From Olsenella sp. oral taxon 807 (GTDB taxonomy: Bacteria; Actinomycetota; Coriobacteriia; Coriobacteriales; Atopobiaceae), in NCBI RefSeq assembly GCF_001189515.2, contig NZ_CP012069.2, positions 868,001 to 932,000 on the forward strand: a DNA stretch of 64,000 nucleotides, read 5' to 3'. Each line of letters begins with the position of its first letter. Position 1 is the stretch's first letter. Under the pieces are notes generated by a model. The model saw only the letters and a program-made list of their open reading frames with translations. It was not told the origin of the DNA and searched no databases. Positions 3,271 through 57,299 of the stretch are shown here, one piece after another. The position numbers and the translations under genes are program-made.

Positions 3271-3694
3271 ACACTGCCACTCGTCGGTGAACGTATGGGG
3301 CGGCGCGTTCAGGGCCGAGTGGCAGTGCGTCGGGTACGTTCAGGGTCGAGTGGCAGTGCGACTCACACTGCCACTCGGTGGCGAGCGTGCTGGGTGGCGC
3401 GCCGTACACTGCCACTCGGCATCGAGCGTGCCGTATCGGTACGATCAGGGTCGAGTGGCAGTGCGTCCGGTACGTTCAGGGTCGAGTGGCAGTGCGACTC
3501 GCACTGCCACTCGGTGGTGAGCGTGCTGGGTGGCGCGCCGTACACTGCCACTCGACATCGAGCGTGCCGCATCGGTACGATCAGGGTCGAGTGGCAGTGC
3601 GACCGGTACGCCCGGGAGCGAGCGGCAGTGCGCCGTACACTGCCACTCGGCATCGAGCGTGCCATATTAGTACGTTCAGGGCCGAGTGGCAGTG
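3271..3694. repeat. Palindromic repeat array A (CACTGCCACTCG family)
   Basis: About 13 half-sites with core CACTGCCACTCG or its complement CGAGTGGCAGTG alternate in orientation as + - - + + - - + + - - + -. Plus half-sites begin (ACTG) at 3273, 3367, 3408, 3503, 3544 and 3639, so the spacing alternates between 94-95 and 41 bp and the composite period is about 136 bp. Each + - pair also has inner complementary segments of the type GAGCGTGCC and GGTACGATC, giving long hairpins. The family is shared with arrays B and C near the ribosomal genes, but here the larger step is about 31 bp longer because of an extra minus half-site. Confidence 0.93.
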
Positions 3695-23061: not shown

Positions 23062-23250
23062 GATGGCTCCTTTCTTCTTGGAACGTGCGTCTCTCGTTCC
23101 ATATGCTCGGGCCTCCGCCCCCATGGCGGCCGTCACCCGAAGACCATCCCTATTACAGCACCTTTTTGGGTGCCCGTCGGCGAGAGAACCGCGAGTTGCG
23201 CCATCGGTCGGCGACGTGACGATGCCTCGTGCGATGGGACCAGGATGCAG

Positions 23251-23289
23251 TTTCGCAGAGCCTCTTTAGGTTTCGCAGAGCCTCTTTAG
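23251..23289. repeat. Perfect tandem duplication at the end of pth2
   Basis: A 20-bp unit beginning TTTCGCAGAGCCTCTTTAG occurs twice in tandem (23251-23270 and 23271-23289; the last base of the second unit differs). The stop codon of the minus-strand peptidyl-tRNA hydrolase falls within the second copy, so the duplication leaves the protein unchanged and lengthens the 3-prime end. Confidence 0.9.
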
Positions 23290-23726
23290 TATAGCGGGAG
23301 CTCGCCAGTGATGGGGTCGATCTCATCGGCGTGCAGAGGTTCGAAGGCTAGGCAGGTATGTGTGGGCTTACCGTGGAACTCCGTGAGGCCCGCGTCGCGG
23401 ATGAGCGCGACGATGAAGTTGCGCTCGCGTCCCTGTGCCGCGATGTCGAGCAGCTCATCCTCGGAGTCCACGTAGACGCAGACCTTGGCGACGCCGGCGT
23501 CGAACCAGTCGGAAAGTGCCGTCGGTATCCCGTTTTCGTCGTCGAGGTAGACTCGACTGCCGTCCGGTGCCACGCGCAGCTGGTCTTGGCGCCCCTCCCG
23601 GACGAGTGCCGCTAGGGTTGCCTCGACGCAGGCGTGTCCCGCCTGGGCTGCGACTTTTCCCTTGCGCATCTTGAGGTCGCGTCTCATGACGATCAGCTGC
23701 TTTGCCTTGTAGGACAAGTTTGGCAT
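23286..23726 (-). CDS. Peptidyl-tRNA hydrolase 2 (Pth2 family)
   Basis: The 146-residue protein shows the Pth2 fold signature KQLIVMRRDLKMRKGKVAAQAGHA and the later AKVCVYVDSEDELLDIA and IRDAGLTEF segments. Pth2 hydrolyses the ester bond of peptidyl-tRNAs released during translation and is the archaeal/eukaryotic type; most bacteria rely on unrelated Pth1. AGGAG lies 5 bases before the ATG. Whether a Pth1 gene exists elsewhere cannot be seen here. The neighbouring gpmA is on the same strand, but an intervening 224-bp gap argues against a tight operon. Confidence 0.85.
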   Translation of the reverse strand: MPNLSYKAKQLIVMRRDLKMRKGKVAAQAGHACVEATLAALVREGRQDQLRVAPDGSRVYLDDENGIPTALSDWFDAGVAKVCVYVDSEDELLDIAAQGRERNFIVALIRDAGLTEFHGKPTHTCLAFEPLHADEIDPITGELPLY

Positions 23727-49408: not shown

Positions 49409-49420
49409 GAAGTGAGCAGC

Positions 49421-49738
49421 ATGCCTAAGATGAAGATCAGGAAGGGCGATCAGGTCCAGGTCTTGTCCGGCAAGGACAGGGGTGCTCGCGGTGAGGTCAT
49501 TCGCGCCATCCCGTCTGAGGGCAGGGTCGTCGTTCGTGGCGTCGCCATGGTGAAGAAGGCCCAGAAGCCCAATCAGATGGGGCAAAATGGCGGCATCATC
49601 GAGAAGGAGTCAGCGATCGACGTCTCGAACGTAGCGCTGATTGATCCCAAGACCGATACTCCGACTCGTGTCGGCTATCGATTTGGCACAGATGGCAAGA
49701 AAGTGCGCTATGCCAAGAAATCTGGCGAGGAGATTTAG
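49421..49738 (+). CDS. rplX: 50S ribosomal protein L24
   Basis: The 105-residue L24 has the KOW-type opening KIRKGDQVQVLSGKDRGARGEV and initiates 50S assembly. ATG 49421 is used; a GTG three codons earlier is possible. It is the last gene of this half: a terminator lies 99 bp on, and rplE, its normal neighbour, is 7 kb away. Confidence 0.96.
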   Translation: MPKMKIRKGDQVQVLSGKDRGARGEVIRAIPSEGRVVVRGVAMVKKAQKPNQMGQNGGIIEKESAIDVSNVALIDPKTDTPTRVGYRFGTDGKKVRYAKKSGEEI

Positions 49739-49836
49739 AAACAGCGTAGCATGTGCACTGTGCAGGGAGTGACTGCACTGCGCTGTGTACTTGAGTGCTG
49801 CGTGAGACATGCGATATGCATTACATGCCTTGAGTG

Positions 49837-49876
49837 CCGCCCGGCAGTGTGAGCCATACTGCCGGGCGGTCTTTTA
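49837..49876 (+). terminator. Intrinsic terminator after rplX
   Basis: Perfect 12-bp stem CCGCCCGGCAGT (49837-49848) and ACTGCCGGGCGG (49858-49869) with a 9-base loop, then TCTTTT. It is the most complete intrinsic terminator in the window and lies in the middle of what is normally one spc operon. The 98 bases before it also fold (ACAGCG and CGCTGT arms at 49741-49746 and 49780-49785). Confidence 0.85.
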
Positions 49877-49916
49877 CGCTATCGGGTGGCTTTGATATGC
49901 CCGGACCCCACCCCTT

Positions 49917-50311
49917 CACTGCCACTCGCCTCTGCCCTGCACTGCCACTCGCCCCCGAGCGTACCGTCCCGGCACGTTCACGCCCGAGTGGCAGTGTGGG
50001 TCGCACTGCCACTCGGCCCCGAACGTACCTTGGCCCCGGTTACGCACTGCCACTCGCCCCCGAGCGTACCGTCCCGGTACGTTCACGCCCAAGTGGCAGT
50101 GTGGGTCGCACTGCCACTCGCCGTTGAGCGTGCCCAGGCTCCACCCCTTCGCTGCCACTCGCCCCCGAGCGTACCGTCCCAGCACGTTCACGCGCGAGTG
50201 GCAGTCTCGTCCGCACTGCCACTCGCCCCCGAGCGTACCTTGGCCCCGGTTACGCACTGCCACTCGGCCCCGAGCGTACCGTCCCGGTACGTTCACGCCC
50301 AAGTGGCAGTG
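49917..50311. repeat. Palindromic repeat array B, 105-bp period
   Basis: Twelve half-sites with core CACTGCCACTCG are ordered + + - four times. Plus half-sites begin (ACTG or variant) at 49941, 50005, 50046, 50110, 50151, 50215 and 50256, so the steps are exactly 64, 41, 64, 41, 64, 41 bp. A shortened copy at 49918 opens the array. Each + - pair forms a 57-bp nested hairpin: 12-bp outer stem, inner stem GAGCGTACC with GGTACGTTC, loop GTCCC. The single + half is followed by a tail such as CCTTGGCCCCGGTTACG. It begins 41 bp after the rplX terminator and ends just before the IS630 element. Confidence 0.95.
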
Positions 50312-50322
50312 AGAGCTATCCT

Positions 50323-51627
50323 ACTAGTTATATCGTTCTTTAAGTATATAGTGGCATTACAGACCTCCCTGCCGTATAATGGTGTCATGGCGACGACACG
50401 TTTACGAGGAGGCTGGCATGCCAAGGACACCGGAGGCCCTGAGGCTCACGGAGGGCGACAGGGAGGCGCTCGAGCTCGTGGCGAGGACCAGGACCGAGCA
50501 GGCGCGGCGGGTGGACAGGGCCCGCATGCTGCTGTGGAAGGCCGACGGCCGCAGCCTCGCGGAGATAGCCCGCTCGCTGGGGGCGAACGTCAACACGGTG
50601 GCGCTCTGCGTGCGGAAGTACCGCGAGGGCGGCGTGGAGGCGGCGCTCTCCGACGCGGCCCGCAGCGGCAGGCCCGCGTCGATAGGCGACGGCGACCGCG
50701 CGTGGGTGGTGAGCCTCGCGTGCCAGAGGCCGTGCGAGCTGGGGCACCCCGCCGAGACGTGGACGCAGTCGGCGCTCGCCGCGCACGTGAGGGCCGAGGC
50801 CGCCCGCGCGGGGCACCCCGCGCTCGCGCGCGCGACGAAGTCCATGGTGTGGTCGATCCTCCACGCGGCCGACCTGCACCCCGACCGGGTGCGCTACTAC
50901 TGCGAGCGGCGCGACCCCGACTTCGAGGGGAAGACGCGCGAGGTGCTCGTCGTCTGCCAGCAGCTCTCGTTCCGCTTCGACGACGACGGCGACCTGCTGC
51001 CCTGGGAGGGCGAGGAGCCGGAGGTCCACGTCGTGTCGGTCGACGAGAAGCCCGGCATCCAGGCGATCGCGCCCGTCGCCCCGGACGTGAGGCCCGAGCC
51101 GGGCGTGCGGGGAGGGGCGCTGCTGCGCGACGGCGAGTACCGCCGGCTCGGCACGGTGTCGCTCATTGCCGGCATAGACCTGCAGGACGGCACGGTGGAG
51201 GGCATCGTGCGGGAGCGCCACAGGAGCCGCGAGTTCGTCGAGCTGCTGGAGGCCCTCGACGCCAAGTACCCCGAGGGGCACGTCATAAGGCTCGTGCTCG
51301 ACAACCACTCCGTGCACAGGTCGAGGGAGACCCGGGCCTGGCTCGAGGGGCATCCCGGCAGGTTCGAGATGGTGTTCACGCCGAGGCACGGCAGCTGGCT
51401 CAACGTGATAGAGGGCTTCTTCGGCAAGATGGCCAGGCAGGTGCTGCGTCACATCCGCGTGAGGTCGCTAGACGAGCTGAGGGAGCGCATCGAGCTGTAC
51501 CTCAGGGAGGTCAACGCGAGCCCCGTGCCCCACAGGTGGAGGTGGGGGATCGGACCCAGCGGAGACGGCAAAGAGGATGCGGCGTGATATGAATACGCTT
51601 CATATAATTCTAGAACGGTCTACTAGT
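50323..51627 (+). mobile_element. IS630-family insertion sequence
   Basis: An intact IS630-type transposase is flanked by imperfect inverted ends. Left: ACTAGT then CGTTCT near 50323-50338. Right, reverse complement: ACTAGT then CGTTCT near 51612-51627. Both ends sit in TA-containing sequence, as IS630 elements target TA. Exact limits are uncertain by a few bases. The left end is 12 bp from array B. Confidence 0.7.
50418..51587 (+). CDS. IS630-family transposase
   Basis: The 389-residue transposase has an N-terminal helix-turn-helix region (about 45-72, RSLAEIARSLGANVNTVALCV). Its DDE core is D209 in VVSVDEKPGIQA, D295 in LVLDNHSVH and E332 in HGSWLNVIEGFFGKM. The frame is intact. GAGGAGG lies 5-8 bases before ATG 50418. 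Very high GC coding, like the other IS genes. It is in the sense direction of the ribosomal operon but behind the rplX terminator. Confidence 0.92.
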   Translation: MPRTPEALRLTEGDREALELVARTRTEQARRVDRARMLLWKADGRSLAEIARSLGANVNTVALCVRKYREGGVEAALSDAARSGRPASIGDGDRAWVVSLACQRPCELGHPAETWTQSALAAHVRAEAARAGHPALARATKSMVWSILHAADLHPDRVRYYCERRDPDFEGKTREVLVVCQQLSFRFDDDGDLLPWEGEEPEVHVVSVDEKPGIQAIAPVAPDVRPEPGVRGGALLRDGEYRRLGTVSLIAGIDLQDGTVEGIVRERHRSREFVELLEALDAKYPEGHVIRLVLDNHSVHRSRETRAWLEGHPGRFEMVFTPRHGSWLNVIEGFFGKMARQVLRHIRVRSLDELRERIELYLREVNASPVPHRWRWGIGPSGDGKEDAA

Positions 51628-51693
51628 GATCTGTCTATTTATATCCTACTGATATTGAGATAGAATGGCACCACACGGGGGAAGGGTGGCTCC

Positions 51694-52821
51694 ATGCCTG
51701 CGGAGAGGTACAGGGTCGAGCTGACGGCGGAGGAGCGCGGGGAGCTGCTCGCGGTGGTGAGGAGGGGTAAGGGAGGGGCCGCGCAGGTCAGGCGGGCGAA
51801 CACCCTGCTCGCGGTGGACGTCGGCGAGCACGCCGACCTGCGCACGAGCGAGGCGAGGCGGCCAGGACGTACCGGGCCTCGGCCAAGACGGTCTTCAGCC
51901 TGAAGAAGAAGCTGGCGGCCGAGGGGTTCCGGGGCGTGCTCGAGCGGAGGCGCAGGTCGTCACCGGGAAACCTCAAGATCGACGGGGACGTCGAGGCGAG
52001 GGTCATCGCCCTCGCGCGCACGGACGCGCCGGAGGGCCACGACCACTGGACGGTCCGCCTGCTCGCGGACAAGGCCGTCGAGCTCGGGTACGTCGAGTCG
52101 GTGTGCCCCGCCACGATCGCGAACCACCTGAAGAAGACGAGGTAAAGCCCCGGGGGGTGAGGGAGTGGTGCGTGCCCGAGGCGTCCCGCGACCCCGTCGC
52201 GGCGACGGGGGACGTGCTCGCCGCGCGTGGGCGCCCCGCCCGCCCCATCGTGCGCCCCGGCGGGGGCTCGCGCCAGCTCGTCGCCCACTCGCGCGGGCCC
52301 CTGCCCGCGAGGCCCGGTGCGCCGGGACCACGGGTGCGTCCGCAACGGCGTGGCCGACGTGCTCGTGTGCTTCGCGCCGCTGCTGTGCGAGCGCCACGCG
52401 CGAGCGGCCCCCACGAGGACCCGCGCGGGCCTGGCCGAGACTCTGTGATGGCTCTCGGACGACGCGTGCCTGCGGGCAGGGCGCATGGTCCTGGTCTGGG
52501 ACAACCCGAGCGCGCACTCCATGGGGTCCCCCTGCGAGGCGTTCCCGCCCGAGGAGGCCGAGCGCCTGGCGAGGCGCCTCGGGCCGCATCACACCCCGGG
52601 GCACGGCTCCTGGCCGGCACATGGCGGAGACCGGGGTCGGTCGTCTTGTGCGGCACGGCCTTCCGGCGCGCGTCGGGAGCTTCGACGAGATGGGGCGTCT
52701 CACGGTCGCCTGGGAGGACGAACGTAACGCACGCGCCCGGACGGCCGGCTGGAAGCTCGCGGTCGGTGATGCCAGGGATAGGCTCGCCAGGCTGTATCCT
52801 AAAATAGTGATAGCAGATTAA
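51694..52821 (+). pseudogene. Decayed IS630-like transposase
   Basis: Fragments in three frames match one IS630-type protein different from the intact copy upstream. An N-terminal part (MPAERYRVELTAEERGELL to DLRTSE), a middle part reading ASAKTVFSLKKKLAAEGFRG to VCPATIANHLKKTR with a stop at 52145, and a C-terminal part with LVWDNPSAHS, HTPGHGSW and VGDARDRLARLYPK. At least three frame changes or deletions separate them. The surrounding ends share ATCTG and CTAT elements near 51629 and 52810, so the element probably spans about 51628-52820. Not functional as read. Confidence 0.75.
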
Positions 52822-52866
52822 GCATAGACGCTATGCTAGGGCTCTTTGAGCACGCCGATGACTAAA

Positions 52867-54588
52867 CCTGAGTTCCCGGCACTTCCTTAGCCCACAACCG
52901 GCAGCCTGATGGTGTCCGGGCACCTGATCCCGAAGGCCCCGTGCGCCTCGCTCGTCTTCCTCACGGGCTCGGTGGTGACCAGCCGCCCGTCGTACCCTGT
53001 CGCGTGCCGCTCGCGCGGGATCCCCGGCATCGACTCGACCGCGGGCGAGGTCCTGCGCGAGGCCAGCACGTCCGACATCATCCTGGTCGCCGCGGTGGCC
53101 ACGAGGCACATGAGCAGGTGCCCGCGGAAGGTCCCCTCGCTCCGCACGCAGACGGGCAGGGCTCTGCCGCCCTGCCTGGCGATCTCGAAGACCTTCTCGA
53201 CGCGGTCTCGGGCGTGGCAGGGGGGGAGCAGCCTCCCCCTGGCTATCCTCCTGGTGCCGGCGAGCACGAACACGCCCCTCGAGGCCATCGAGTCGTGGGC
53301 CTCGGCGCCCGAGAGCCCGCCCTCGGCGGCCCTCCTGGCGGCGTCGCGCCCGGGCTCGCGGCGCATGGCGGCGTCCAGGCACAGGTAGGCGTAGCCCCTG
53401 CGGTCGCCCCTGGAGCCGATCCCCACGGGGACGCACCTGGCGCACGCGAGCCTGCCGTCGCGCGTGACCGCGTTCTCCCTGGCCTCGAGCCCGTCGACCA
53501 CCTCCCCGTGGGCCCCCGGGTTGGGCCCCGTCCTCGCGAGGATGGGCACCCTCGCGCCCATCAGCGCGTCGGCGCTCGCGTTCGCGTGGTACCCGGCGTC
53601 GAGGACGGCGAACCTGGTGTCCACGCCCATCGCCCCGGGCTCGGCGATGGTGCGGGTGACCGTGCTCACGTCGATCACGTTGCCGGCGACGTGGCGGAAG
53701 AAGAGGGGCAGGCCCGTGTCGCGCTGCACGACGTAGATGAGGCGGACCTCCTCGCCGGCCTGGCCGTTGTGGTTGCTGACGGCCGTGACGGGAAGGCGGC
53801 AGGAGTTGGGCAGCCCCGTGGAGTCGATGAGGATGCCGTCGGCGCGCCCGCCTGCGGCCGCCTCCCTCCGCCTGCCGACGAGGGCCAGGTACTCGCCCAC
53901 GAAGCGGCGCTTGGCGTCCTCGCTGCCGAGGTCGGCCAGGCACTCGCTGACCCTCTGGGAGGCCATCCTGGCCCTGGGGTAGAGGAGCCTCGCGTAGGTG
54001 AGCTCCCACCAGTCCACGGCGTGGCGGTTGGCGAGGCCGGTGAGCACGTAGAACGCCAGCAGCGCCCGCACCGTGTCGGGCTCGGCGTGGCCGCACGCGT
54101 CGGCGCAGGCCATCAGCCCGCCCGGGCGCAGGGGGGAGCCCGGCAGGAACGCGTCGCCGAACGACACGGCGAGCGTCGGGCGAGCGGCGCGGGCGTTGCG
54201 CCCCCTCGCCCCCTCGACGCCCTCCGGCGCGGGCCCGAACTCGCCCGTCTCCAGGTCGCAGGGGAACAGGCCCCTGGCCTTGCTCCGGTACACCCCGCGC
54301 GCCCTGTCCACGACCCGGCCCAGGCACGCGCGGTCCCCCCTCGTGGCCCTCGCGCCGTCCCCCGCGGACCTGACGACCGTCGCGCGCTCGTTGCCGTCCA
54401 CGACGTCGTGGCTGATGTACATGCCCGCCTCCTGTGGAATAAGTGAAAACCTCATGCCACATGACGCCGGACGCGGCCGCCGCACGCAAGCGACGGCCAA
54501 GGCATTTCAGCAGCTAGGCGCAGGTTCTCGGGGCAGGCGGCGATCCGGGCCTGCGCCCAGTGGGCTAAGGAAGTGTCGGGAAGTCAGG
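52867..54588 (-). mobile_element. IS4/IS1634-type insertion sequence with CTAAA target duplication
   Basis: The 1722-bp element has 29-bp inverted ends (52867-52895 and 54560-54588) matching except at two positions, and a 5-bp direct repeat CTAAA on both sides (52862-52866 and 54589-54593). It carries one intact minus-strand transposase. The clean duplication points to recent insertion, into DNA lying upstream of the AbiEi/DUF559-like gene. Confidence 0.9.
52887..54422 (-). CDS. IS4/IS1634-type DDE transposase
   Basis: The 511-residue transposase has D200 in ILIDSTGLPNS, D275 in FAVLDAGYHA and a late glutamate in RVEKVFEI, the pattern of the IS4/IS1634 group (DDE_Tnp_1). ATG 54422 has AGGAGG five bases upstream; in-frame codons further out are not needed. 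The stop lies inside the left inverted end. The frame is intact and GC-rich; large open frames on the opposite strand are shadows. Confidence 0.88.
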   Translation of the reverse strand: MYISHDVVDGNERATVVRSAGDGARATRGDRACLGRVVDRARGVYRSKARGLFPCDLETGEFGPAPEGVEGARGRNARAARPTLAVSFGDAFLPGSPLRPGGLMACADACGHAEPDTVRALLAFYVLTGLANRHAVDWWELTYARLLYPRARMASQRVSECLADLGSEDAKRRFVGEYLALVGRRREAAAGGRADGILIDSTGLPNSCRLPVTAVSNHNGQAGEEVRLIYVVQRDTGLPLFFRHVAGNVIDVSTVTRTIAEPGAMGVDTRFAVLDAGYHANASADALMGARVPILARTGPNPGAHGEVVDGLEARENAVTRDGRLACARCVPVGIGSRGDRRGYAYLCLDAAMRREPGRDAARRAAEGGLSGAEAHDSMASRGVFVLAGTRRIARGRLLPPCHARDRVEKVFEIARQGGRALPVCVRSEGTFRGHLLMCLVATAATRMMSDVLASRRTSPAVESMPGIPRERHATGYDGRLVTTEPVRKTSEAHGAFGIRCPDTIRLPVVG

Positions 54589-54593
54589 CTAAA

Positions 54594-54825
54594 TTATTAA
54601 CCGAGGTATACCGGAAAAATCGAGCCCTGTATGACGCAGGAATTTCGTTGTGGGGGTCACGTACGTTTGCCTATATTTGCGGTATGTTCAGTACGCCAAT
54701 AAGCTTATACGTATCTCTCATACTTTCAGCTATTGATCCCTATACTATTCACTATTTTAGTATCTTTTTGACCTTCCAACCATGTATGGTAGGTACCTCT
54801 AGTCACAACGGGTGGGAGGGGAGAC
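54594..54825. other. AT-rich upstream region of the AbiEi/DUF559-like gene
   Basis: This 232-bp stretch is visibly richer in A and T than the rest of the window, especially 54660-54790, and has several TATACT- and TTGATC-like pieces, but no promoter with ideal spacing could be fixed. It ends in a GGAGGGG binding site. The low GC suggests foreign origin shared with the following gene. Confidence 0.5.
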
Positions 54826-55932
54826 ATGATTATTCTCAGTCACAGAAGTGCGCTTGGGATCTGGCGAGCTACGGTAAGAGAATGCGAGGAAGATGCGACG
54901 GCGACAAGTCAAGGCGGCATCGGCTTCACGTCCCATCATAGTTGGGAACCAGCTATTCCCTTCAAACCCCTGCGCGCAATGGATCTCTCCCAGTTACACT
55001 TGGCGGTTTCAGTGAGTGAGGTTCGATCTGCCCTAAGGCAACTTGGCCCATGGTTAGAGCCTGCGCTCGTGGATGGACACGTTCATTTGCTTTTTCCCTT
55101 GCACAGGAAAAGGATTGTAGTGCCTGGTGTTAGAAGTCACAGCTGGTGTGAGAGGTTACCTAGGTGTGCGCTTTATCGTATAAGCAAAAACGTGCTTCTC
55201 AGTGGTCCAGAGTTCACGCTTCTGCAGCTTGCGTATGGCTCAACACTCGTCTGTTCGACTTCACTGTCTCTTGAGTTTTGTGGATTTTATAGCAAGGCAG
55301 ATGGGAGCGAATCAAAATTGCTCACAAGGCGTACTCCACTTACAACACCATCACGTATAGGATCCCTAATCGATGAGCTGCCGGGTGCGCATGGCATCAA
55401 ACTGATCGAGCGTACCCTGCCATATCTAACGGCAGGCTCCGCTTCTCCTATGGAGACAAACGTAGCAATGTTGGCTTGTCTCCCACGACGCTATGGAGGC
55501 TATGGGTTGGCGATTCCCAAGTTCAACCAGACTATTGAGCTTTCGAAGGAGGGAGAACGGATTATGGGCATGAATGCCATCACGGTCGATTTGGTATGGA
55601 CAAGTGCGCATGTGGCTATAGAGTACAACAGTACGGCAGAACATGGCCTGTACCTTGACGAGTCAAGCAACGGTCCCATGCAGATGCAAGAGACCCTTCG
55701 CAAGCTTGAGAGAAGACGCAAGCGGGACGAGATGCGCATCTCGGCCTTGAGTGCCTCAGGATGGAAGGCATTTCCCCTTGTGAGTGCGCAGGTATACAAC
55801 TGCCAGAGCTTTGACGCAGTCATCAGGGCTATAGCGAATGCCCTTGGAAAGAAAATTCGCGCGGAGGCACTAAACTTCAAAAGGAAGCGCACATTCTTGA
55901 GGCAGGAGGTGCTGGGGCTAGAGAACCAATAG
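54826..55932 (+). CDS. AbiEi/DUF559-like protein, putative PD-(D/E)XK nuclease
   Basis: The 368-residue protein has a middle part resembling AbiEi-type regulators of DUF559 proteins (about 55-155: HVHLLFP, RIVVPGVRSHSW, LLSGPEFTLLQLA). Its C-terminal domain (about 250-345) has DLVW (D255), VAIEYNS (E266) and RDEMRISALSASGWKAFPL, the layout of DUF559/Vsr-like PD-(D/E)XK folds, although the usual lysine after the glutamate is replaced by tyrosine-asparagine. ATG 54826 has GGAGGGG upstream. Codon use is less GC-rich than neighbours. It lies inside the ribosomal operon, and array C begins 16 bp after its stop. Roles in defence, mobility or regulation are all possible; activity is not shown. Confidence 0.6.
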   Translation: MIILSHRSALGIWRATVRECEEDATATSQGGIGFTSHHSWEPAIPFKPLRAMDLSQLHLAVSVSEVRSALRQLGPWLEPALVDGHVHLLFPLHRKRIVVPGVRSHSWCERLPRCALYRISKNVLLSGPEFTLLQLAYGSTLVCSTSLSLEFCGFYSKADGSESKLLTRRTPLTTPSRIGSLIDELPGAHGIKLIERTLPYLTAGSASPMETNVAMLACLPRRYGGYGLAIPKFNQTIELSKEGERIMGMNAITVDLVWTSAHVAIEYNSTAEHGLYLDESSNGPMQMQETLRKLERRRKRDEMRISALSASGWKAFPLVSAQVYNCQSFDAVIRAIANALGKKIRAEALNFKRKRTFLRQEVLGLENQ

Positions 55933-55947
55933 CTCCGATGAATGTAA

Positions 55948-56370
55948 CACTGCCACTCGCCTTTGAGCGTACCGTCCCGGTACGTTCACGTCCGAGCGGC
56001 AGTCTCGCCCGCACTGCCACTCGGCCTTGAGCGTGCCCAGGCCCCGGTCCTGCACTGCCACTCGCCTCTGAACGTTCCGACTAGTACGTTCACGTCCGAG
56101 TGGCAGTGTGGGTTGCACTGCCACTCGCCGTTGAGCGTACCTTGGCCCCGGTTACGCACTGCCACTCGACCCCGAGCGTACCATCCCAGTACGTTCACGC
56201 TCGAGTGGCAGTGTGGGTCGCACTGCCACTCGCCGCTGAGCGTGCCTAGGCTCCGGTTACGCACTGCCACTCGCCTTCGAGCGTACCGTCCCGGCACGTT
56301 CACGCTCGAGTGGCAGTCCCGTACGCACTGCCACTCGCCCCCGAGCGTGCCCGGACCCCGGTCCTGCACT
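55948..56370. repeat. Palindromic repeat array C, 105-bp period
   Basis: Half-sites of the CACTGCCACTCG family begin (ACTG) at 55949, 56013, 56054, 56117, 56158, 56222, 56263, 56327 and 56368, giving steps 64, 41, 63, 41, 64, 41, 64, 41 bp, the same 105-bp frame as array B and the same orientation (+ + - order). Inner stems GAGCGTACC with GTACGTTC and tails CCTTGGCCCCGGTTACG are shared with array B in a mosaic way. The array opens 16 bp after the AbiEi/DUF559-like stop and the last copy is truncated (CACTGTCAAAT). Confidence 0.95.
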
Positions 56371-56376
56371 GTCAAA

Positions 56377-56735
56377 TGGTTCCTTGTAATGCGGTCTCAG
56401 AAGGAAGGCTCGCGGGCCGGAAGGATTATGAATATGCTCTGGCTTTTTTCTTTCAGCCAGTCCACTTGCCACAAAGCCCTACCATGTATTTCTGCGTGTG
56501 ACTTCTGTTTATGGCGAGATGGGCGGGATGCTGCCCAGAGTTATGGTGTTCTGGCTTTTGCCCTTTGGAGGCCGCACGCTCGCAATGGCTCCTGGCCTGA
56601 GATGCCACGGTCCAGGGGGCGCGAGGCTAACCGCAGGTCATGATCAGGCTGCGTGTCGCAACGAGTTGTGGTGCGCATTACGTCGTGACGTCAGGCCAAC
56701 CCCGCGCTAAACACCACCACAGCTAAGGAGAGCGT
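56377..56735. other. Leader region before rplE
   Basis: This 359-bp gap holds no gene. A CTGGCT/AGCCAG stem around 56440-56460 includes a run of six T. No convincing promoter pair was found, so how rplE and the following genes are transcribed (read-through, or a promoter of non-consensus type) is open. The Shine-Dalgarno context AGCTAAGGAGAG matches that of rpsL. Confidence 0.5.
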
Positions 56736-57299
56736 ATGGCAGATGGATCCACGTACGTGCCGCGACTCAAGGAGAGGTACTTCTCCGTCGTGCGCGACGA
56801 GCTTCGAAAGAAGTTTGACTATAAGAATGTCAACCAAATTCCCAAATTCGAGAAGATAGTCGTCAACATGGGTGTCGGCGAGGCCGCCACCGATTCGAAG
56901 GCTATCGACGGGGCTGTAGCTGACCTGCGCACCATCACTGGCCAACAGCCCATCGTCACCCACGCTCGCAAGTCCATCGCGACCTTCCACCTGCGTGCGG
57001 GCATGCCTATCGGCGCTAAGGTGACGCTTCGCGGAAACCGCATGTGGGAGTTTCTCGACCGTCTCATTTCCATCGCCATCCCGCGCGTCCGTGACTTTCG
57101 CGGAATCAGTCCAAAGTCCTTCGACGGCCATGGCAACTTTTCGATGGGCGTGACTGAGCAGCTAATCTTCCCCGAGATTAACTATGACAAGATCGACCGC
57201 ACGCGTGGCATGGACATCACCATCGTCACCACTGCCAAGACCGACGAGGAGGGCAGGGCGCTTCTCGAGTCCTTCCACTTCCCGTTCAAGAGGAACTAG
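56736..57299 (+). CDS. rplE: 50S ribosomal protein L5
   Basis: The 187-residue L5 binds 5S rRNA and contacts the P-site t[14 protein letters not shown], the [14 protein letters not shown] segment and the [20 protein letters not shown] loop are intact. It restarts the spc operon after the 7-kb interruption. Confidence 0.97.

Follow-up and report, generated by a model that had tools for sequence, protein, structure and literature searches.

The genes for ribosomal proteins L24 (rplX) and L5 (rplE) of Olsenella sp. oral taxon 807 are separated by 6997 bp, and between them lies a nuclease gene together with two arrays of a repeat that recurs elsewhere in the genome. This raises the question of what ties the gene to the repeats, and whether the locus records the arrival of a self-contained mobile module in an essential operon, as the first-pass annotation proposed. 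The window considered here is the whole stretch of 64,000 nt that was analysed; all positions are window coordinates, and the genome is one contig of 3.21 Mb.

The rplX–rplE interval in Olsenella and its relatives

From left to right, rplX and a terminator are followed by array B, three IS elements (one of IS630 type, a broken IS630-like copy and one of IS1634 type), the nuclease gene, array C and rplE (Table 1), which confirms the layout and boundaries of the first-pass annotation. The IS630-type element is reasonably intact, the IS630 model scoring 215.8 bits on the copy at ~50323–51627, and the CTAAA duplication of the IS1634-type element occupies 52862–52866 and 54589–54593. As was also held earlier, the IS elements look like secondary, later insertions; once they are subtracted, array B lies ~294 bp from the nuclease gene (about 300 bp had been given), and array C begins 16 bp 3' of the stop at 55932. 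The gene was rightly described as AT-richer, with 51.6% G+C against 61.2% in the window. Elsewhere in the window, a short tandem repeat with a period of 20 is found at 23250–23295.

Table 1. Features of the rplX–rplE interval, with the distant array A (window coordinates).
Feature	Position	Strand	Remarks
rplX (L24)	49412..49738	+	left edge of interval
terminator-like G+C-rich hairpin followed by T-run, 3' of rplX	49838..49878	+	read from sequence
array B	49940..50311	.	inward and outward pairs of 25-nt bipartite site CACTGCCACTCG-N5-GARCGTAC
IS630-type element	50323..51627 (approx.)	+	ORF 50379-51587
second IS630-like copy, degenerate, with broken frames	51628..52820 (approx.)	+	only fragments recognised, e.g. 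HTH_32
IS1634-type element	52867..54588	-	terminal inverted repeats; CTAAA on both sides
nuclease gene, 368 aa	54826..55932	+	predicted AbiEi-like N-terminal domain and Vsr/I-Bth0305I-like PD-(D/E)XK domain
array C	55948..56362	.	site, grammar and polarity as in array B; 84% identity to array B
rplE (L5)	56736..57299	+	right edge of interval
array A	3272..3694	.	dispersed array of the same site as B and C, distant from the nuclease gene

The idea that a module entered an essential operon presupposed that rplX and rplE are normally adjacent, which does not hold in this bacterial family, where wide gaps are usual. In every relative measured the two genes are separated, by about 95 bp to 4.4 kb (4368 bp), with 2257 bp in genome G014 and ~95–1376 bp in other relatives. 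Among the relatives' intervals listed as L097–L116, gap lengths run from 244 bp up to 7 kb within the family, and the genes inside differ. Several have their own terminator after rplX, a terminator-like hairpin being present there in congeners, and some gaps hold unrelated genes such as dehydrogenase-like ORFs. Since the interval was already open in relatives, the split of the operon is not a recent effect of the module; the gap is a tolerated docking place, open beforehand, and not the point of the system. That all close relatives share the gap, with neither arrays nor gene in it, had been named as evidence against a mobile module; this holds in part, as many have such a gap, although a smaller one. 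Just ahead of rplE, congeners also keep leader-like sequences that resemble each other.

A sister of the nuclease gene occupies the interval in O. profusa and its near-twin; it is 36–39% identical and placed with an SH-aLRT of 99, orthology being read from a quick tree. It lies in the opposite orientation to the focal gene, and on either side it is accompanied by another repeat, GGAGCGAAATGGCCCCAAGTGCGTGCT, in inverted pairs. This repeat is absent from the genome of taxon 807 (G000), as the focal repeat is from O. profusa and its twin. Thus, at one and the same locus, the repeat is replaced when the gene diverges. In genome G010, a family gene of another lineage occupies the interval; a 789-bp direct duplication of the start of a short-chain-dehydrogenase-like ORF is also seen there.

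A family of predicted fused nucleases in Coriobacteriales

In profile searches, the focal protein is not covered by any family of Pfam, NCBIfam or PADLOC. An alignment of 30 relatives yielded a predicted model with a pLDDT of 87; Foldseek, run on the full model, found no match at E below 0.001, and a second structural look was needed. Structure comparison of residues 205–342 of the model gave I-Bth0305I (Z 9.6) and Vsr (Z 8.8), and a profile search of the protein also matches 3r3p (E 3e-5). E210, D255 and E266 are invariant in the alignment of 30 relatives, with H273 and D301 conserved in at least 90%, and the predicted C-terminal domain (~205–342) combines the Vsr/I-Bth0305I fold with these conserved acidic and His residues. 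This half is also related to DUF559 and REase_MTES_1575. The N-terminal domain (residues 1–204), predicted alone, comes closest to residues 67–195 of the AbiEi antitoxin, with a moderate Z of 7.7 that stands well above only three other listed entries. On the basis of the predicted structures, the gene would encode an AbiEi-like domain fused to a nuclease domain of the Vsr/I-Bth0305I type; its initial labelling as AbiEi/DUF559-like is thereby supported.

Almost all Coriobacteriales carry the family, in multiple copies; of 100 relatives, 77 have it, often with many copies per genome. Among 396 genomes drawn from the phylum, strong matches over the full length come from Coriobacteriales, and among the matches listed, those of other groups are weaker and mostly lie in the C-terminal region. 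A phage, plasmid or viral origin of the family was considered and rejected, as phage, plasmid and viral collections lack it save for one weak plasmid hit. Purifying selection acts on the gene: of 12 pairs, 11 have a dN/dS of 0.07–0.27, and O. profusa with its near-twin, the remaining pair, differs by too few changes to judge.

Repeats of the focal gene and of its relatives

Pattern searches of the Olsenella genome return 295 exact occurrences of the 12-mer CACTGCCACTCG (142 + 153), compared with 4 (3 + 1) for the reversed control, an excess far greater than chance would give. These cluster in ~32 mostly intergenic places, while the 59 relatives searched have 0–3 copies each, which is background. 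Arrays B and C both have a 105-bp period and are each other's nearest kin genome-wide (84% identity), but with the same repeat at ~30 other sites they are not the private ends of a module. The focal site is bipartite, consisting of CACTGCCACTCG, 5 variable bases and GARCGTAC, 25 nt overall. Among 302 sites counted across 21 places, 271 of the 277 neighbour spacings fall within the classes 20, 31, 41, 43/44 and 64, of which 31 and 41 are one helical turn apart.

The variable spacer differs in behaviour according to the orientation of neighbours. In inward inverted neighbours, spacer positions 3 and 4 match in 4 of 55 cases each, where ~20 and ~19 are expected, and outward inverted neighbours have a similar shortage of matches at these positions; direct neighbours, in contrast, do match there. 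Because inverted neighbours are mismatched and direct ones matched, each array has a polarity, in which it resembles the alternating units of BIMEs. When folded, the 57-nt inward pair gives a hairpin made of two stems and an internal loop (z −5.3 to −7.1 versus shuffles). Rfam returned only sub-threshold chance matches. Most array and element copies are intergenic, 6 of 40 overlapping a gene called by the simple gene caller used.

The pairing of gene and repeat extends well beyond this locus. Inverted arms of at least 20 nt, 80–180 bp apart, accompany 37 of 75 family genes but only 23 of 381 control genes (6%) taken from the same loci (p=2e-18), an enrichment of about eight-fold that is not seen at a spacing of 180–400; by these criteria, about half of the family genes lack an inverted pair. 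Many pairs lie just 5' of the start of a family gene or just 3' of its stop. The usual form in relatives is an inverted pair, its ~20–35-nt arms 100–170 bp apart. Inverted repeats flank the gene on both sides in this Olsenella genome, O. profusa and its near-twin, whereas many other family genes have them on one side only. The annotation's view that gene and arrays belong together thus generalizes to a unit of a gene plus its cognate repeat.

Most family genes, moreover, adjoin a repeat of their own, usually scattered over that one genome. The five family genes of the Olsenella genome each adjoin a different repeat within a few hundred bases, and those of the four other genes have ~26 dispersed copies, 12, 2 and a few, the last belonging to a gene interrupted by a stop. 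Nine repeats of a first batch were searched for in 15 genomes and eleven of a second, taken in order, in 12, and each was confined to its own genome, except within the near-identical O. profusa pair. For the first batch, 8 of 10 genomes had dispersed copies beyond the gene, and for the second, 10 of 11 did (18/21 overall), the remaining 3 of the 21 repeats tested having no copy away from the gene; high copy (~300 sites) is demonstrated for the focal repeat only. By eye, the focal site has no tag of the GTAG/CGTC type, and the other arms show no tag in common. We rejected RAYT as the agent of the repeats, as it is missing from several repeat-bearing genomes: Y1_Tnp is absent from five of nine genomes tested, four of which carry dispersed repeats.

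Within elements, it is the arms that are retained. Orthologs in Eggerthellaceae have conserved arms around a diverging core. In genome G004, the arms of twelve elements covary, with 112 matches versus 101.9 expected, a value reached by 0 of 5000 shuffles; no arm covariation was found among six elements of genome G041. Dispersed copies of the repeat of one Olsenella paralog (L147–L166, from the paralog L093) are elements of ~180 bp in which 24-nt palindromes enclose a conserved core; one side resembles a hairpin plus T-run. By eye, no target-site duplication is seen around aligned element copies. O. profusa and its near-twin have about equal sets of elements (~12 each), which indicates that movement is not frequent. 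In Paraeggerthella DSM 16106, an element copy (L311, G474:C20:42272-42507) lies between genes that, on a reading of their translations, are lysC- and arcC-like, and it was not found in the sister Paraeggerthella hongkongensis RC2/2 A, both genomes being drafts. This difference hints at gain or loss of an element, but a gap in the draft assembly could also explain it.

A proposed gene–repeat partnership and its alternatives

Distinct genes beside a private repeat class of inverted doublets with a variable spacer are known from RAYT (TnpA-REP) and its REP/REPIN/BIME repeats (PMC2817692, PMC3116915). We consider it somewhat more probable than not that we are dealing with a RAYT/REPIN-like partnership built on an unrelated, Vsr-like nuclease, each gene having its own extragenic inverted repeats. 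Its direct support comprises the adjacency of gene and repeat, the dispersal of most repeats, the restriction of each one tested to a single genome or near-twin pair, the replacement of the repeat upon divergence of the gene, the purifying selection on the gene and the greater conservation of arms than of cores. In both systems, a distinct gene that is not itself a multiplying element adjoins its own repeat class and is flanked by inversely oriented repeats, and the repeats are mostly extragenic and scattered; they form inverted doublets, conserved at the ends and variable in the spacer, and are sometimes clustered. The differences are a Vsr-like PD-(D/E)XK fold instead of HUH/Y1, the lack of a GTAG/CGTC tag, and sites of ~25–33 nt in pairs ~80–180 bp apart or in phased arrays.

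As for how such a partnership might work, the nuclease would recognise the arms as hairpin DNA and cut or nick them, after which the cut element would be repaired or copied, so that the repeats are maintained and spread; we infer both the action of the nuclease on the repeats and the copying itself. The arm covariation in G004 and the mismatched spacer of inverted neighbours speak for the use of hairpins, but the mismatch could alternatively reflect two classes of double-stranded site or the instability of perfect palindromes. Whether this is a second, independently evolved REP-type system, in which a Vsr-like PD-(D/E)XK nuclease would recognise strand-polar hairpin repeats private to its gene and itself copy them genome-wide, the whole being inherited with the chromosome across Coriobacteriales, we regard as evenly balanced.

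Other known systems match in part. The C-terminal nuclease fold with its acidic and His residues is shared with I-Bth0305I and Vsr, from which the focal protein differs in being an AbiEi-like fusion and in its link with repeats scattered over the genome that encodes it; unlike homing endonucleases, it is encoded by a free-standing gene between rplX and rplE, not in an intron or intein. With AbiEi it has in common an N-terminal half resembling residues 67–195, but the match omits the N-terminal part of AbiEi, and repeats are attached to the focal family. Actinobacterial DUF559 proteins are akin in the C-terminal half, through DUF559 and REase_MTES_1575. Like MITEs, the elements are ~110–200 bp long with inverted ends of ~20–35 bp; here, however, cores diverge while arms are conserved, no target-site duplication is seen by eye in aligned copies, and the product of the cognate gene is not a known transposase.

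RAYT/REPIN-type partnerships are known with HUH enzymes, and the reason for their persistence is an open question (PMC3116915). Our literature search found RAYT/REPIN papers, and none tying DUF559/Vsr-like genes to repeats. An unrelated nuclease family with RAYT/REPIN habits would constitute an independent replicate of the gene–repeat partnership, and with several divergent copies per genome, enzyme–repeat pairs that change together would provide natural specificity variants for the study of recognition, copying and host benefit. It also offers a name for many unannotated genes and intergenic repeats of gut and oral Coriobacteriales.

A less likely explanation is that the repeats are double-stranded binding sites, regulatory or chromosome-organising, with which the protein has changed in step without mobilising them. 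Conserved arms, diverged cores and near-fixed spacing would suit it, as would the few spacing classes of the focal sites, two of them a helical turn apart, the AbiEi-like domain, and the many pairs immediately before a gene start or after a stop. Yet such strong conservation of nuclease residues is unexpected in a pure binder, hundreds of copies with tandem expansion exceed ordinary operators, and the arms in G004 covary.

The combination of AbiEi-like and Vsr/REase-like domains, and the several divergent paralogs per genome, also bring to mind a defence or restriction-like system, in which the nuclease attacks DNA according to the presence or absence of the site and the chromosomal repeats serve as self marks or decoys. 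This is improbable, given that no PADLOC model is significant for the focal protein and other members are marginal only, that repeats are multiplied hundreds-fold, and that within the window the focal gene has neither a methylase nor a toxin partner beside it: an AbiEii toxin gene is absent, its neighbours being IS elements, arrays and ribosomal genes.

Even less credible is the original proposal of a self-contained array-gene-array mobile module that jumped into the interval. The ortholog with other repeats that O. profusa and its twin have at this place speaks against it, and against a recent arrival, as do the absence of the family from phage and viral collections, with one weak plasmid hit, and the dispersal of the array repeat without the gene, against which stand the flanking of the gene by two arrays that are mutually nearest relatives, the family gene of another lineage in the same interval of G010, and an Abi_2 gene elsewhere that is flanked by direct array copies. 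Mere coincidence in palindrome-rich genomes, with genes that happen to lie among repeats, is strongly disfavoured and very improbable: 6% of control genes also have inverted pairs, but the eight-fold enrichment, the spacing preference, the gene-specificity of the repeats and the retention of arms by orthologs all oppose it.

The Abi_2-family gene just mentioned (G000:C1:1809600-1813800) lies between two direct ~420-bp copies, which contain an array of the focal repeat and the end of the adjoining gene; judged from this locus, arrays may capture cargo. A second inverted repeat, GGGCGCGAATCGGG..., encloses the element copies at L283 and L284, as though one family were nested in another.
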